Assembly: GCA_020438215.1 (NCBI GenBank)
Contig: JAGQUX010000006.1
Coordinates: 1-64,000, forward strand
DNA: 64,000 bases
From: Armatimonadota bacterium
GTDB taxonomy: Bacteria > Armatimonadota > Fimbriimonadia > Fimbriimonadales > Fimbriimonadaceae
Direction of reading: 5' to 3'
Positions 31,368 through 64,000 of the stretch are shown in pieces. The notes under the pieces are model-generated. The model was not told where the DNA came from. It made no database searches and saw only the letters and a list, made by a program, of their open reading frames with translations. How positions within the stretch are numbered: position 1 is the first letter of the stretch; every line of letters starts with the position of its first letter. The translations under genes were made by a program, and so were the position numbers.

Positions 31368-31579
31368 TTTCTGCTCGAAATGATACGAGCGAGAATCACC
31401 CAGCAATCGGGACGAAAACGCAAAGTGCCCGATTCGCCCGGTATTTCCCCTAGTTTTGGGCCAGAACCTGAAAATTTTTCCATGCTCCTAAAGAGCAGGG
31501 TTGCGGCATACCGACAATGTTCCATGTAGCGTTCGTGCGTTCTGTGGCGTGTGCGAACCAGACAGGAGTTAGGCGAAAG

Positions 31580-32782
31580 ATGCCGTACTTTGCATATACA
31601 GCAGTAGATACATCAGGGCGACAAGTCAAAGCCGTTATGGAAGCCGAGAACGAAGCACTCGTTCTTGGTCGCCTTCGCGAGCAGCAACTTCAGATCGTTG
31701 ACCTGAAAGAACTTAAGAAGAAAAAATCCGCGAAAGTCGGAAAGCAAAAGCTAAAAATGAAGGCCCTCGTGGTCTTCTCGCGGCAGTTTGCAACAATGAT
31801 CAACGCGGGGATTCCGATCTTGCGGTGTCTGGAGATCCTGTCCTCCCAAACCAAAGATCCTGTTCTCAAGCCTACACTCGAAGCAGTTCTCATGGATGTT
31901 AAGGGTGGTTCCACGCTGAACGAGGCGATGGCAAAGCATCCAGGTGTGTTTAGCAAGCTTTATGTGAACATGATCCGCGCCGCAGAAATTGGGGGGATTC
32001 TTGATACGATCTTGGATCGCCTCTCCGGCTTCTTGGAATATGAAGCCGAAGTCAAAGGCAAGATCAAGTCCGCGATGATGTATCCGGTCTTGGTTCTTTG
32101 TTTTTCGCAGATCATGCTGTTCGTTCTGTTCAGCTTCGTTCTGCCGAAATTCAAGGAAATCTTTGAAGGGATGGATGTTGAACTGCCAGCGGTGACCGCA
32201 GCTCTGTTTGCAATGGGCGACTTCATGCAAAAGAGCTGGTGGATGATCATCCTGGCTCTGGTTGGCATCTTCTTTGGCATCAAGAGTTGGGCAAAAACCC
32301 CGAAAGGCAAGTACCAAACCGACTGGATGAAACTCAAACTCCCGGTCATTGGTGAACTTGGACTGAAGATGTCCATAGCTCGATTCTGCCGCACACTAGG
32401 AACTCTCATCAACTCGGGTGTTCCGATGATGCGAAGCCTCGAAATCGTGGGTGAAACCCTCGGTAACGAAGTTCTCATCAATGCGGTTGATCAAACACGA
32501 CTCTCCATCCGCGAAGGGAACAAACTCAGCGCGCCGATGGCAGAAAGTGGTCTCTTCCCCAGCATGGTTACCCACATGATCGACGTGGGTGAAGAATCTG
32601 GTCGTCTGTCAGAAATGCTCGTCAAAGTTGGCGACTTTTATGACAGCGAAGTGGAAGCAACCGTCAAAGGCCTGACCTCGATGATCGAACCGATGTTGAT
32701 TATCTTCCTCGGTGTCGTGGTCGGCTTTATTGCGATTTCGGTGATGACCCCAATCTTCAAACTGGTCAACAGCGTGAAGTAG
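31580..32782 (+). CDS. pilC: Type II secretion / type IV pilus platform protein (GspF/PilC family)
   Basis: A 400-residue inner-membrane platform. It starts MPYFAYTAVDTSGR, a standard GspF/PilC opening, and has two homologous T2SSF domains (about 70-195 and 270-390). Three hydrophobic helices are seen near 165-190, 215-235 and 370-395. No pilB, pilT or pilin gene is adjacent, so it lies apart from its pathway. An upstream frame to 31517 is not needed. Confidence 0.9.
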   Translation: MPYFAYTAVDTSGRQVKAVMEAENEALVLGRLREQQLQIVDLKELKKKKSAKVGKQKLKMKALVVFSRQFATMINAGIPILRCLEILSSQTKDPVLKPTLEAVLMDVKGGSTLNEAMAKHPGVFSKLYVNMIRAAEIGGILDTILDRLSGFLEYEAEVKGKIKSAMMYPVLVLCFSQIMLFVLFSFVLPKFKEIFEGMDVELPAVTAALFAMGDFMQKSWWMIILALVGIFFGIKSWAKTPKGKYQTDWMKLKLPVIGELGLKMSIARFCRTLGTLINSGVPMMRSLEIVGETLGNEVLINAVDQTRLSIREGNKLSAPMAESGLFPSMVTHMIDVGEESGRLSEMLVKVGDFYDSEVEATVKGLTSMIEPMLIIFLGVVVGFIAISVMTPIFKLVNSVK

Positions 32783-32973: not shown

Positions 32974-34248
32974 ATGTCGGAAGCATTGGCAAAGCAAAAC
33001 GGCGATGCTGAAGCTCTGGTTCTGGAGTACATGGCGAATCCACGTCCTGATTTGAAGGACTTGATTATCGTGCATTACTCGGGAATGGTAGAGCGCATCG
33101 CAAGAAAATTTAGAGGCGTCGAATCAGTCGACGACCTGGTGCAAGTGGGCTATATTGGTTTGCTCAACGCGCTCGGGAAATTTGATCCCGAAGCGGGTGT
33201 GCGATTCAATACCTATGCAACTCACTTGGTGGCTGGCGAGATCAAGCACTATCTGCGTGATCGCTCGCAAACTATTCGCCACCCAGCCTGGTTGCAAGAA
33301 TTGCGACACAAGGTCAACAAGACCGCAAACTTGTTGCAGACCGAGCTCAGTCGCACCCCCACCGAACGCGAAATCGCGGATAGCCTTGGCGTGAGTGAAG
33401 CCTCTGTACGAGAGGTGTATTCCACCCAAGATATGTTGCGCGTCGCATCTCTAGATGCAACCCCTAACGACGATGATGATAGCGAAAGCGATGTTGATCG
33501 CCTGGACGCAAATCTCGTTGGGCCGGATCAAGTCAGCGTAGAAGATCGTGTTCTTTTGGAAGGAGCAATGCAACAGCTCCGCGACCTGGAACGAGAAGTT
33601 CTGGTCATGTTCCACTTCGATGCACTGAATCAAACCGAAATCGCGTCACAACTGGGTATTTCCTGCAATTATGTTTCTCACATCCTGCGCCAGTCGTTGA
33701 CCAAACTTCGCCGCATTCTGCAAGAAGAAGAATCTCAAGAGCGCGTACTTCGCCGCTCCGTCCCCGATGACAAAGGCGTGATGGATGACGAAACCGGAAT
33801 CTACAACGAAGACTACTTCCGTTCCCGATTGAGCGAAGAAGTGCACCGCGCGTGTTCCACCGAAGATGTCTGTGCTGTCGTTCTTGTTGAAGTAAACGGA
33901 CTCGGTGCACTGGCAGACTTTTACGGTCAAACATCCGTGCAAGACTTTATGGTTGATGTCGCTGGCTTCTTGAAAGGCTGCGTTCGTGGCCTGGATATCG
34001 TGGCCCGCAACGGCTCCACTGGTTTCGGAGTCATCCTACCGGGAACTGGCTCCAACGTGAACCAAGTTGTCGAGCGCATCCAATCCCGAGCCAACAAGTG
34101 GCTTGTTGGTCGCGTCACTAATGGCGGCTCTGTCCGATTGGAATACGGCTTTGCATCCGCACCTGATGATGGTCGCACCGCCGCTGATCTCCTCAAATCC
34201 GCTCTCAAGCGTTCGCAACTCTGCGAAGAAGGTCAGCAAGCCGCCTAA
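32974..34248 (+). CDS. SigB/SigF-type sigma factor fused to a degenerate GGDEF domain
   Basis: A 424-residue fusion. Sigma-70 part: region 2 at about 27-97 (DDLVQVGYIGLLNALGKFD, then RFNTYATHLVAGEIKHYLRD), region 3 at about 98-175 (RTPTEREIADSLGVS), region 4 at about 195-250 (NQTEIASQLGISCNYVSHIL). This is the SigB/SigF class. Residues 270-415 look like a GGDEF domain: DDETGIYNEDYF, then VLVEVNGLG, then RGLD at 338-341, GSTGF at 347-351 and EYGFASAPDDGRTAADLLK. The catalytic GGDEF is replaced and metal-site Asp residues are E306 and N308, so it should not make c-di-GMP. The RxxD inhibitory-site motif is at the canonical five-residue spacing. No anti-sigma gene is adjacent. ATG 32974 follows GGAG. 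Confidence 0.85.
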   Translation: MSEALAKQNGDAEALVLEYMANPRPDLKDLIIVHYSGMVERIARKFRGVESVDDLVQVGYIGLLNALGKFDPEAGVRFNTYATHLVAGEIKHYLRDRSQTIRHPAWLQELRHKVNKTANLLQTELSRTPTEREIADSLGVSEASVREVYSTQDMLRVASLDATPNDDDDSESDVDRLDANLVGPDQVSVEDRVLLEGAMQQLRDLEREVLVMFHFDALNQTEIASQLGISCNYVSHILRQSLTKLRRILQEEESQERVLRRSVPDDKGVMDDETGIYNEDYFRSRLSEEVHRACSTEDVCAVVLVEVNGLGALADFYGQTSVQDFMVDVAGFLKGCVRGLDIVARNGSTGFGVILPGTGSNVNQVVERIQSRANKWLVGRVTNGGSVRLEYGFASAPDDGRTAADLLKSALKRSQLCEEGQQAA

Positions 34249-41887: not shown

Positions 41888-42673
41888 TTATGCCACGTGT
41901 GGCACTCCTTCATCCCTCAAAAAATTTCTGAGGCGGCCCATTGCTTGAGTGTGAAGCTGATAAACCCGGCTTTCACTGACACCCAGCACTTTGCCAATTT
42001 CTTTGAATGTCAAACCTTCGAAATAGTAAAGCGCAATGACCAATCGCTCGCGTTCGGGAAGCTTATCTACCCCGGAAGCCAGCACGCGTCGAAGTTCTTT
42101 CCCTTCGACTTCGCCATCGGGATCAGCGTCTTCATCCACAATCATTTCAACGAAATGGATGTGGTCATCCCCATCCGCAGATCCTCCACCGACGATGTCA
42201 TCAAGCGAATAGACGTTGGTTTTCCCAATGCGCTGTTGAAGATCAGAAACTTCTTGTTCGCTATATCCCAGATAGTCGCTCAGTTCGCGGACAGAAGGGA
42301 CATAACCCAGCTCCGGTTCAAGCGCTTTTACTGCGCGATCCAGTGCCTTGAGTTTTTCGCGGATGCTACGCGGAACCCAATCTTCATCGCGGAGCATTTC
42401 CAAAATTGCTCCTCGGATGAGAGCGATTGCGTAGGTTTCAAATTTGACGTCGCGGGTCGGGTCGTATTGATCCACGGATTTGATCAAACCAATGACACCA
42501 GCACTGACAAGATCATCGCGATCCATTCCATTCGGAACTGAAGTGACCAAGCGGCCAGCCGTAATCTTGACCAGATAACTGTAGTGGTTGATCAGTTCCA
42601 TGCGCGCTTCGGGCGCTTTGTAAACCTTGTAATCAATCCAAGTCCGTTGTAGCTGTTCGGGCGATAAGGGCAT
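41888..42673 (-). CDS. FliA/WhiG-family sigma factor
   Basis: A 261-residue sigma-28 type protein. Region 2: GMDRDDLVSAGVIGLIKSVDQYD and VKFETYAIALIRGAILEMLRDEDWVPRSIR, the last being a sigma-28 family hallmark. Region 3 has PSVRELSDYLGYSEQEV, and region 4 GLTFKEIGKVLGVSESRVYQL. Such factors drive flagellar/chemotaxis genes in many bacteria (FliA) or development (WhiG). The chemotaxis operon is at the window's far end, so motility control is plausible. The small gene 41645-41881 is downstream. Confidence 0.92.
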   Translation of the reverse strand: MPLSPEQLQRTWIDYKVYKAPEARMELINHYSYLVKITAGRLVTSVPNGMDRDDLVSAGVIGLIKSVDQYDPTRDVKFETYAIALIRGAILEMLRDEDWVPRSIREKLKALDRAVKALEPELGYVPSVRELSDYLGYSEQEVSDLQQRIGKTNVYSLDDIVGGGSADGDDHIHFVEMIVDEDADPDGEVEGKELRRVLASGVDKLPERERLVIALYYFEGLTFKEIGKVLGVSESRVYQLHTQAMGRLRNFLRDEGVPHVA

Positions 42674-61549: not shown

Positions 61550-62032
61550 TTACGCGGCGGCTTTTTCTGCCTTAGTTTGTAGGCTGACGTTGATTTCCAT
61601 GTCTCCGATATCACCAATCGTGACTGGAATCACCAGCGCCGGAGCATCCATTGTTGCGATGCGGACATTCGCACCTTTGATGATCGTTGGCGGCGTGATG
61701 TCAACATCAAAACCTTGCTCGGTGAGCCCCGTTGCCGAGTTCCCGCTGATCATGTTGCCAAGTTCTGCAATTGCAGAAGCGGCAAGCTGATCAAACGTGG
61801 TCACCGGCATACCAATCATCTTGGTTGCGACCTGGTGCGCCGTCTTGGATGCCATCCCGTAGATAACCTGACCATAGACGTCACCGGTAATCCCGCAGAC
61901 AATATTAATCTGCTGAGATGTGAACATCTGTGGGCGCGCTCCAAGTTGGCCCCGCTTGATTTCTTGGCCAGAGATCTGCTTCAAAACATTGATCGACCCC
62001 GCCAAGAAAGGCATTACGTATTCGACTTTCAT
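61550..62032 (-). CDS. cheX: CheX-like CheY-phosphatase
   Basis: A 160-residue chemotaxis phosphatase of the CheC/CheX/FliY group. The ExxN active motif is in AELGNMISGN, a single copy as in CheX. It follows cheY, which it would dephosphorylate. GAGGAG precedes the ATG. Confidence 0.85.
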   Translation of the reverse strand: MKVEYVMPFLAGSINVLKQISGQEIKRGQLGARPQMFTSQQINIVCGITGDVYGQVIYGMASKTAHQVATKMIGMPVTTFDQLAASAIAELGNMISGNSATGLTEQGFDVDITPPTIIKGANVRIATMDAPALVIPVTIGDIGDMEINVSLQTKAEKAAA

Positions 62033-62079
62033 AAAGAAACTCCTCTCATTCCCCGTGTGTTAGGTTGCAAGCAACCCAA

Positions 62080-62445
62080 TTAGGCAGCTAAGAGTTTCCC
62101 GACCGCTTCCAGAACGCGTTCCGGTTGGAACGGCTTGACAATGAAGTCTTTCGCTCCGCTCTGAATCGCTTCGACGACCATGTTTTTCTGGCCCATTGCC
62201 GTGCACATCACAATTGTTGCGCCGGGATCAGATTCTTTGATTTTTTTCAAAGCTTCCAGTCCGTCCATTTCTGGCATTGTGATGTCCATAGTGACAAGAT
62301 CTGGCTTCAGTTCGCCGTAGAGCTTGACTGCTTCAGCGCCGTTTTGCGCTTCGCCGACAACCTCATACCCGTTCTGAGTCAGGATATTTTTCAGTGTGAC
62401 GCGCATGAACAGTGCGTCATCTGTGATTAGGATGCGTTTCGCCAT
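62080..62445 (-). CDS. cheY: Chemotaxis response regulator CheY
   Basis: A 121-residue single receiver domain. Acid pocket Asp9-Asp10, phosphoacceptor Asp54 in VTMDITMPEMDG, Lys in FIVKPF. It overlaps cheR by 19 bases. Confidence 0.93.
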   Translation of the reverse strand: MAKRILITDDALFMRVTLKNILTQNGYEVVGEAQNGAEAVKLYGELKPDLVTMDITMPEMDGLEALKKIKESDPGATIVMCTAMGQKNMVVEAIQSGAKDFIVKPFQPERVLEAVGKLLAA

Positions 62446-63236
62446 GTGTTATTCCTCAGCATTGGTTTCTGGTAGAAGAACGGCATTGCCGTCTCCAATC
62501 CGATACTCTCGGGATCGGTGATTCGTTCGGTTGACCCGATGAACAGAATTCCGCCCGGTTTCAGAGCATCGAAAAACTTTTTGTACAGTTCGTTCTTGGC
62601 TTCTTCGGTGAAGTAGATCACCACGTTTCGACACATGATCATGTCGAAGCCAGAATCGAACCGGTCAGCAAGGAGGTTTTGCTTTTTGAAAGTCAGATAC
62701 TTCCGCAGTTTTTCGTCTGCGAAGAATGCACCGTCCTTCTCTTGCAAGTAGTCCTTGTATTCCTTGGGGACTGCCCGCGTATCGTTTCGAGAGAACTCAC
62801 CGCGCCCAGCTTGTGCCAGAGCAGCAAGATCAATGTCGGAACCGATAATGCGGTGTCCACCCGGAAACTTTTTGTCTAAGACCATCGCCAGCGTGTGCGC
62901 CTCGGCACCGTAGCTACACCCTGCACTCCACACCTTCAGGCGAGGGCTCTTGTCTAAGAGCATCGGCAGGATTTTGGTCTCCATTTCACGCCACTTTTCT
63001 GGGTTGCGGAAAAGCTCACTCACGTTGATCGCAAGGTGATCGCAGAACCAGTCGATGTTTTCTTGCTTTTGGGCAAGGAACGTCCAGAAGTCAGCTAGGC
63101 TCTTGAAGCCTTTGTTTTCTGCAAGTGAAAGGATTCGACGTTGAAGCTGATTCGGGCGATACAGATACAAATCAAGCCCGGTTCGCTTCATCATGGATGC
63201 GTAAAAAGCATCCCAATCCGACTTTTTAGCTAGCAC
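62427..63236 (-). CDS. cheR: Chemotaxis methyltransferase CheR
   Basis: Methylates receptor glutamates with SAM; 269 residues. The N-terminal helical domain is followed by VWSAGCSYGAEAHTLAM, the SAM site, and MIMCRNVVIYFT. Coupled to cheB and cheY. Confidence 0.94.
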   Translation of the reverse strand: MLAKKSDWDAFYASMMKRTGLDLYLYRPNQLQRRILSLAENKGFKSLADFWTFLAQKQENIDWFCDHLAINVSELFRNPEKWREMETKILPMLLDKSPRLKVWSAGCSYGAEAHTLAMVLDKKFPGGHRIIGSDIDLAALAQAGRGEFSRNDTRAVPKEYKDYLQEKDGAFFADEKLRKYLTFKKQNLLADRFDSGFDMIMCRNVVIYFTEEAKNELYKKFFDALKPGGILFIGSTERITDPESIGLETAMPFFYQKPMLRNNTWRNAS

Positions 63237-64000
63237 GTTTCATTCTCCCGCTGAGCGCGCCGACAATCGCCGCACCCATCTCTTCTAACTTGAATTCCGC
63301 TTCAATGCCACCGACTTCCTTGGCCGCTTTTGGCATACCGTAGATGACACAGCTTTCTTCTGCTTCGCCGAGTGTGGTTCCGCCTGCTTTGCGGACGGTC
63401 AGAGCACCGGCAGCACCGTCACGACCCATTCCGGTCATCACGACGCCAATACATCGGTCTCCCCACTTCTTCGCGGCGGTATTGAAGAGTCGATCTGCGG
63501 CTGGCTTGACTCCGTGCTCAGTTGGCCCTTCAACAAGATGCAGTTTTCCGTCGGCGCCAACTTCCATGTGAAGTCCGCCGGGAGCAACATACGCCTTACC
63601 CGGAACGATCAAATCGCCATCTTTTGCTTCGACACAAGGAACGGTTCCAATCCGATCCAGTCGGGATGCAAACGAGCTTGTGAACCCAGCCGGCATATGC
63701 TGAACAATCAAGATCGGAGCAGGAAAGTCTTTCGGCAGACTCTCCCAGAGAGTCGCAAGTGTTTTTGGCCCACCCGTCGAGCTTGCCATCACAACAACCT
63801 TGTCCGTCTTTGAAGAAGGTGCTTTGACGTGCACGACCCGAACTGGTTTTCGAGAGACTTTTGCGTAATGGGCGGCACGAATTTTGTCCAGAACTTCGTT
63901 CTTGACTTGAACAAACTTGAGGCTCGCTCCACCTTGTGGTTTGGTCACAAAATCGTAGGCACCGATTTCCAGAGCTTGCATGGTGGCTTCTGCGCCTTCC
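63226..64000 (-). CDS. cheB: Chemotaxis methylesterase CheB (partial, N-terminus outside window)
   Basis: Receptor demethylase; the first part of the receiver domain lies beyond base 64000. The open frame continues past the ATG at 63981 with the receiver end ALEIGAYDFVTKP. The effector domain has SSTGGP (catalytic Ser), QHMPAGFTSSFASRL and MTGMGRDGAAG with the catalytic Asp. First visible gene of the che operon. Confidence 0.92.
   Translation of the reverse strand, partial: EGAEATMQALEIGAYDFVTKPQGGASLKFVQVKNEVLDKIRAAHYAKVSRKPVRVVHVKAPSSKTDKVVVMASSTGGPKTLATLWESLPKDFPAPILIVQHMPAGFTSSFASRLDRIGTVPCVEAKDGDLIVPGKAYVAPGGLHMEVGADGKLHLVEGPTEHGVKPAADRLFNTAAKKWGDRCIGVVMTGMGRDGAAGALTVRKAGGTTLGEAEESCVIYGMPKAAKEVGGIEAEFKLEEMGAAIVGALSGRMKRAS

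Follow-up and report, generated by a model that had tools for sequence, protein, structure and literature searches.

The 424-residue protein encoded at positions 32974 to 34248 (forward strand) of the window, by which we mean the whole stretch of 64,000 nucleotides of Armatimonadota DNA that was analysed, is a group-3 (SigB/SigF-like) sigma factor joined to a GGDEF domain. At the level of sequence, the active site of this domain is dead and its full four-residue c-di-GMP inhibitory site (I-site) is retained. The fusion is thus likely to be a one-component, c-di-GMP-responsive group-3 sigma factor, a proposal in which ligand binding, the direction of the effect and the regulon are all inferred, in the absence of binding, transcription or stability data. 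The features of the window on which the argument rests are the following.

31517..32782, + strand: PilC/GspF-like type IV pilus platform protein, conserved upstream neighbour of the fusion (tblastn match in 64/86 fusion loci)
32974..34248, + strand: sigma-GGDEF fusion gene, 424 aa, predicted c-di-GMP-responsive sigma factor (frame, Pfam, homologues)
33067..33267, + strand: sigma-70 region 2, residues 32-98 (Pfam PF04542, E 1.2e-14)
33298..33483, + strand: sigma-70 region 3, residues 109-170 (Pfam PF04539)
33565..33711, + strand: sigma-70 region 4 with helix-turn-helix, residues 198-246 (Pfam PF04545)
33664..33756, + strand: uninterrupted helix that extends from the recognition helix of region 4 into the pre-GGDEF linker, residues 231-261 (AlphaFold2 models)
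33781..34203, + strand: degenerate GGDEF domain, residues 270-410 (Pfam PF00990; PDB profile matches including PleD; model pLDDT mostly >90)
33847..33849, + strand: R292, equivalent of PleD R313, the I-site arginine reaching into the partner GGDEF domain (72/72; PleD alignment; role from PMC7288161)
33985..33996, + strand: I-site RxxD; R338 corresponds to PleD R359 and D341 to PleD D362 (72/72 each)
34012..34026, + strand: former GGDEF catalytic motif, now GSTGF, residues 347-351 (GG[DE]EF in 0/72 homologues)
34075..34077, + strand: R368, equivalent of PleD R390, third primary I-site residue (68/72)
34240..34245, + strand: terminal Ala-Ala, a possible C-terminal degron recognised by ClpX (Ala-Ala end in 37/39 homologues of the order and 65/86 of the phylum, against 6/207 control genes)

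A preliminary description, made from the sequence alone, had reported sigma regions 2, 3 and 4 followed by a GGDEF-like domain in this single frame, which the ORF and Pfam analyses confirmed. The GGDEF domain was recognised with an E-value of 1.4e-18 and 67.6 bits against a cut-off of 23.8 (Pfam, residues 270-410). For the sigma part, the best NCBIfam model was SigB/SigF/SigG (TIGR02980, E 8e-55), with a score of 186 bits that lies under the curated family cut-off of 234; the score against the FliA/WhiG model TIGR02479, 120 bits, is likewise under its cut-off of 189.6. The motifs were found exactly as described: the catalytic signature reads GSTGF, the two metal-site Asp positions are E306 and N308, and R338-G-L-D341 stands five residues ahead of the former GGDEF. 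Two of the checks that had been proposed were also run, and revealed a GGDEF fold by both HMM search and structure prediction and the presence of R338 and D341 in 72/72 aligned fused proteins across the phylum. Inspection by eye of the ORFs adjoining the fusion, limited to this neighbourhood, recognised no kinase-type anti-sigma factor, and no c-di-GMP riboswitch was found in the window, where the sole RNA match is one tRNA.

Both AlphaFold2 models displayed a confident GGDEF fold, with pLDDT values mostly above 90 over residues 270-420, and an unbroken helix (231-261) that leads from the recognition helix of region 4 in the direction of the GGDEF domain. The second model, based on 72 sequences, had an improved pLDDT of 87.5, but its pTM rose no higher than 0.46. 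With a whole-chain pTM of 0.43-0.46 across the two models, the placement of the domains is not resolved; because this interdomain geometry is missing (pTM 0.46), the route from the ligand to the sigma part and the sign of the effect are both unsettled. Foldseek analysis of the first model retrieved SigB, sigma-S and WhiG-RsiG structures for the sigma half, and the GGDEF domain from T. maritima (TM 0.81-0.84 by target) and PleD complexed with c-di-GMP for the GGDEF half. In a profile search against the PDB, the GGDEF domain matched 46 PDB sequences, PleD among them.

Conservation within the domain was determined over 146 columns of an alignment of 72 fused homologues that share 29-66% identity with the window protein. 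Only R292, R338 and D341 occupy zero-entropy columns (3/146; 72/72 each). R368 ranks sixth of the 146 columns and is conserved in 68/72, the four sequences without it being L029, L031 and both of those from the 1.5-Mb genomes considered below. The catalytic columns 306, 308, 348 and 349 rank 109-131 of 146 and column 350 ranks 82; GG[DE]EF is kept in none of the 72 homologues, and the positions equivalent to PleD D327, N335, G369 and E370 are hypervariable, with for example R, E, K or Q at 306. Profile alignment paired R292, R338, D341 and R368 with PleD R313, R359, D362 and R390, which are the four residues of the (c-di-GMP)2 inhibitory site (PMC7288161). This site takes three residues from one GGDEF domain and R313 from the neighbouring one, the c-di-GMP dimer bridging the two (PMC7288161). 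The chance of the three most conserved columns all being among the four I-site residues is about 8e-6. Four further residues, R285, E288, E289 and P356, are nearly invariant too and are not known to contact the ligand. Among the few canonical cyclases sampled from the phylum, 2/7 lack RxxD, which argues that the I-site residues are not required for the fold.

Synthesis of c-di-GMP by the fusion, already considered unlikely in the preliminary description, therefore becomes very unlikely in the absence of GG[DE]EF from all 72 proteins, a judgement made from sequence alone. Binding of c-di-GMP by the GGDEF domain is very likely, but it is inferred without binding data, and the earlier suggestion of c-di-GMP as direct ligand is supported by sequence only. 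Since R292 is the equivalent of PleD R313, ligand-induced dimers are predicted.

Full-length homologues, about 40-70% identical, were present in 40/41 genomes of the genus, family and order of the window. Extending the survey to 291 Armatimonadota genomes with a 38-sequence profile gave full-length fusion matches in most families; in families f39 to f45 of the survey numbering, mostly sigma factors without a GGDEF domain were found. One fusion homologue, L041, belongs to Chthonomonas sp. UBA2362. A tree computed from the sigma part alone, leaving out the GGDEF domain, grouped 42/42 sampled fusion-type sigmas into a clade of their own (SH-aLRT 99) that excludes the solo SigB-like, FliA/WhiG and RpoD sigmas. 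Because the fusion-type sigmas form this single clade, one origin is the simplest account, and the fusion is likely to have arisen once and to be old and conserved in Armatimonadota. Plasmid records contained no fusion: none covers 80% of the query and the listed rows match the sigma part only.

Some homologues depart from the common pattern. In L021, from a single-contig genome (G006:C1:2834296-2835551), the frame breaks near residue 333 and resumes in another frame, separating the sigma from the I-site; a pseudogene, an assembly error or a frameshift are all possible. Two proteins of deep lineages, both outside the 72-sequence alignment, have lost the sensor in different ways: L119 (G102, family f17) has a fusion-type sigma whose GGDEF domain is gone, and L118 (G043, family f6) carries Q at the R338 position and so has lost the I-site arginine. 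Both constitute natural experiments on sigma activity without the sensor.

The C-terminus revealed a further signature. In the order, 37/39 homologues end in Ala-Ala and the remaining two in Val-Ala; phylum-wide, the Ala-Ala end is found in 65/86 fusion homologues versus 6/207 control genes. The ten residues preceding it are not conserved, position -3 often being polar (Q, K, R or E), and the solo sigma relatives without a GGDEF domain do not end in AA. This ending is absent in several deep lineages and in both 1.5-Mb genomes, though RxxD is kept there. For ClpXP, no part of the ssrA degron matters more than its terminal Ala-Ala (PMC7652416), and CtrA, which needs its C-terminal alanines, is stabilised once these are changed (PMC4433202). 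No tmRNA was detected in the loci scanned, so that the Ala-Ala end of the host's own tag could not be confirmed. A role of the tail as a ClpXP degron, with proteolytic control of the sigma, is inferred without stability data, and we consider the case for and against it to be balanced.

Regarding the genomic neighbourhood, the order pilB/pilT-like gene, pilC, fusion recurs in several families, with pilB/pilT, assigned from N-terminal sequence, upstream of pilC in L034, L035, L040, L073, L075 and L080. Within the order, counting genomes at least 95% complete (tallied by hand), the fusion and FliM are both present in 66, both absent in 8 and discordant in 0. This 66-to-8 table is inflated by shared ancestry, and the losses may represent only two or three events. 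Genus g36 contains both states, with fusion and FliM in 11 species and neither in 8 near-complete ones, and the joint absence is also seen in G068/G069 (family f12). In deeper families, four near-complete genomes (G048, G099, G191 and G195) have the fusion with no FliM match; in G072 and G078, FliM is present and no fusion was seen. The link between the fusion and flagella thus holds within the order but is not universal across the phylum.

PilZ showed the same distribution: among the 23 genomes tested, all those with the fusion have PilZ domains and all those without it have none, including G111, G122, G124, G125 and G127, which still encode 4 to 11 GGDEF proteins. The genomes without any GGDEF protein (G068, G069, G112, G113 and G120) are also without the fusion. 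Domain matches in genome G000 number 11 for GGDEF, 2 for EAL, 4 for HD-GYP (HD_5) and 4 for PilZ. At the other end, the 1.5-Mb genomes G153 and G154 have only two GGDEF proteins, namely one canonical cyclase (GGEEF, RxxD) and the fusion, and no EAL or HD-GYP phosphodiesterase was found in them. These two genomes (L136, L138, L146, L147) also carry two PilZ matches and FliM, and their fusions lack the terminal Ala-Ala. At the right edge of the window (61550-63981, reverse strand), an apparent cluster of CheX-, CheY-, CheR- and CheB-like chemotaxis genes was read from the sequence, in keeping with a motile organism.

The window also encodes, 8 kb from the fusion, a canonical FliA/WhiG-family sigma (41888-42673, reverse strand; TIGR02479, 237.6 bits against 189.6). 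Orthologues of the latter occur in all five genomes compared, non-flagellate relatives included, so its role is not only flagellar. Among the five group 1-3 sigmas of the flagellate relatives, only the fusion has no orthologue in either of the non-flagellate genomes compared, two in number; G111 is a non-flagellate member of the window's own family. Three rpoD genes and one fliA have been described in Fimbriimonas ginsengisoli (PMC4072686), and the sigma inventory of G111 agrees with this set.

A regulon search in G000 with the sigma-28-like pattern TAAA-N15-17-CCGAWRA revealed no enrichment (17 matches versus 24 in the reversed control). Upstream of one class of flagellin genes (L165, L167, L173, L179, L180, L183, L186 and L190), we observed a sigma-28-like promoter, TAAA-N16/17-CCGA[AT][AG]A, which some copies match imperfectly, with one mismatch; the spacer contains a conserved TTCCA in most of them. 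A second flagellin class (L168, L172, L176, L182, L184, L193 and L194) is without such a promoter and displays upstream repeated palindrome-like elements of the CTRGTAAAAATACTGG type, often in two copies about 21 bases apart. The CTRGTAAAAATACTGG-type elements could possibly be an activator site, whose owner is unidentified.

In the mechanism we propose, rising c-di-GMP would lead intercalated dimers to bind R338, D341 and R368 in a first GGDEF domain and R292 in a second, in the manner of PleD, which would lock two sigma-GGDEF chains together. Such cross-linking would alter where the adjoining region 4 lies or how accessible it is, and the sigma would toggle between a competent and a sequestered state. 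We lean, without great assurance, towards a sigma that is off at high c-di-GMP, the sign of the effect being inferred. By a weaker inference, Ala-Ala would be a ClpXP degron and c-di-GMP occupancy may also set the rate of sigma degradation. Motility and surface genes are the probable output, given the location of the gene downstream of pilC and its loss along with flagella within the order of the window; this too is inferred, no regulon having been found. A bolder reading would have the (c-di-GMP)2 cross-link both sideline the sigma and gate its ClpXP destruction via the Ala-Ala tail, with no anti-sigma and as a trait ancestral to much of the phylum; promoter selection would then be set by c-di-GMP directly. 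The balance tips against this full version, which, if true, would join separate anti-sigmas and c-di-GMP-binding transcription factors as a third architecture. Gating without a separate anti-sigma factor, as first suggested in the preliminary description, remains an inference.

Several other explanations can be weighed against this model. It is possible, though less likely, that the GGDEF domain is a c-di-GMP receptor that mainly controls stability via Ala-Ala and ClpXP, with no direct effect of the ligand on transcription by the holoenzyme. In favour of this stability reading are the frequency of the AA end despite the freely varying residues before it, its absence from the GGDEF-less sigma relatives, and the precedents of PopA, which directs ClpXP degradation of CtrA (PMC12564702), and of the C-terminal alanines that CtrA needs (PMC4433202). 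However, several deep lineages and both 1.5-Mb genomes keep RxxD without AA, so sensing there cannot use the tail. Degenerate GGDEF domains can also act as interaction modules, and the domain could serve dimerisation or protein interaction without sensing c-di-GMP, a partner or anti-sigma binding it and the I-site being kept for structural reasons. The near invariance of R285, E288, E289 and P356 would fit such a role, which we nevertheless judge unlikely: the I-site residues appear dispensable for the fold, on the small sample of canonical cyclases described above, and it would be odd for the invariant set to be exactly the ligand set, including the cross-chain arginine.

An active or GTP-binding cyclase with an unusual signature, the sigma making c-di-GMP locally, finds some support in variant-motif cyclases that can be active, such as AGDEF in VCA0965 (PMC3974145), but the absence of GG[DE]EF from all 72 homologues and the hypervariability of the catalytic positions all but exclude it. 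The fusion could, finally, simply be the flagellar (FliA) sigma of these bacteria. For this speak its presence or absence together with FliM in the order, with the same split for PilZ, the fact that, of the five group 1-3 sigmas, it alone is absent from non-flagellate relatives, and the FliA-like promoters (TAAA-N16/17-CCGA) at one flagellin class. Against it, the separate canonical FliA/WhiG sigma at 41888-42673 is a more natural user of these flagellin promoters, and fusions persist without FliM in deeper families; both points weaken the equation of the fusion with FliA. Because the canonical FliA/WhiG sigma is retained in non-flagellate genomes that lack the fusion, the fusion is not simply FliA, and this identity is unlikely.

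The c-di-GMP-responsive sigma factor that we favour has partial counterparts in known systems. By analogy, PopA from Caulobacter crescentus is the closest precedent for a dead GGDEF domain with an I-site acting through ClpXP: like the fusion, it combines a dead active site with an intact RxxD I-site, and it is a c-di-GMP effector in the ClpXP proteolysis of a transcription factor (PMC12564702). PopA is, however, a separate response-regulator/adaptor protein, whereas in the fusion the receptor, and possibly the degron, lie on the transcription factor, the sigma, itself. The proposed role also resembles RsiG-(c-di-GMP)2-WhiG in Actinobacteria, in which c-di-GMP dimers control a group-3 sigma and which was, as of 2021, the sole sigma-anti-sigma complex that c-di-GMP was known to target (PMC8325347). 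There, c-di-GMP is bound jointly by the sigma and an unrelated coiled-coil anti-sigma; the putative sensor of the fusion is its own GGDEF domain, and its sigma is SigB/SigF-like, not WhiG-like. The diguanylate cyclases PleD and WspR have their fold in common with the fusion, which has the same four I-site residues as PleD, where (c-di-GMP)2 cross-links two GGDEF domains; these are active enzymes with product inhibition, while the fusion retains the inhibitory site alone.

The SigB/SigF/SigG family, which is controlled through anti-sigma partner switching, is the best family match and has regions 2, 3 and 4 in common with the fusion, which differs by its score under the cut-off, its own clade and its C-terminal receptor domain. 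Sigmas with an extra regulatory domain are known in ECF41 and in SsdA from Actinoplanes missouriensis, but none of these or similar fused sigmas in the literature searched has a second-messenger receptor domain. No description of a sigma-GGDEF fusion was found in the open-access literature searched (subscription papers were largely outside the search), consistent with what had been stated in the preliminary description, nor did any paper found there connect a sigma factor and GGDEF with Armatimonadetes, or c-di-GMP and flagella with Armatimonadota. Each element is known by itself, be it degenerate GGDEF receptors, regulatory domains fused to sigmas or RsiG-mediated c-di-GMP control; no report of their combination came up in this literature, and its occurrence was assessed in Armatimonadota only. 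Beyond what had first been described, the present analysis adds R292 and R368, which complete the I-site, the Ala-Ala end, the phylum-wide range and the associations with pilC and flagella.

In the decision of a cell to move or to settle, c-di-GMP is the principal signal. The residues R292, R338, D341 and R368 and the terminal AA are singled out for mutation, and the GGDEF domain of the fusion offers a natural test of (c-di-GMP)2 cross-linking as a general inactivation device outside cyclases. If the proposed reading is true, a sigma factor can act as a second-messenger receptor in its own right, and this arrangement would be conserved across a little-studied phylum.
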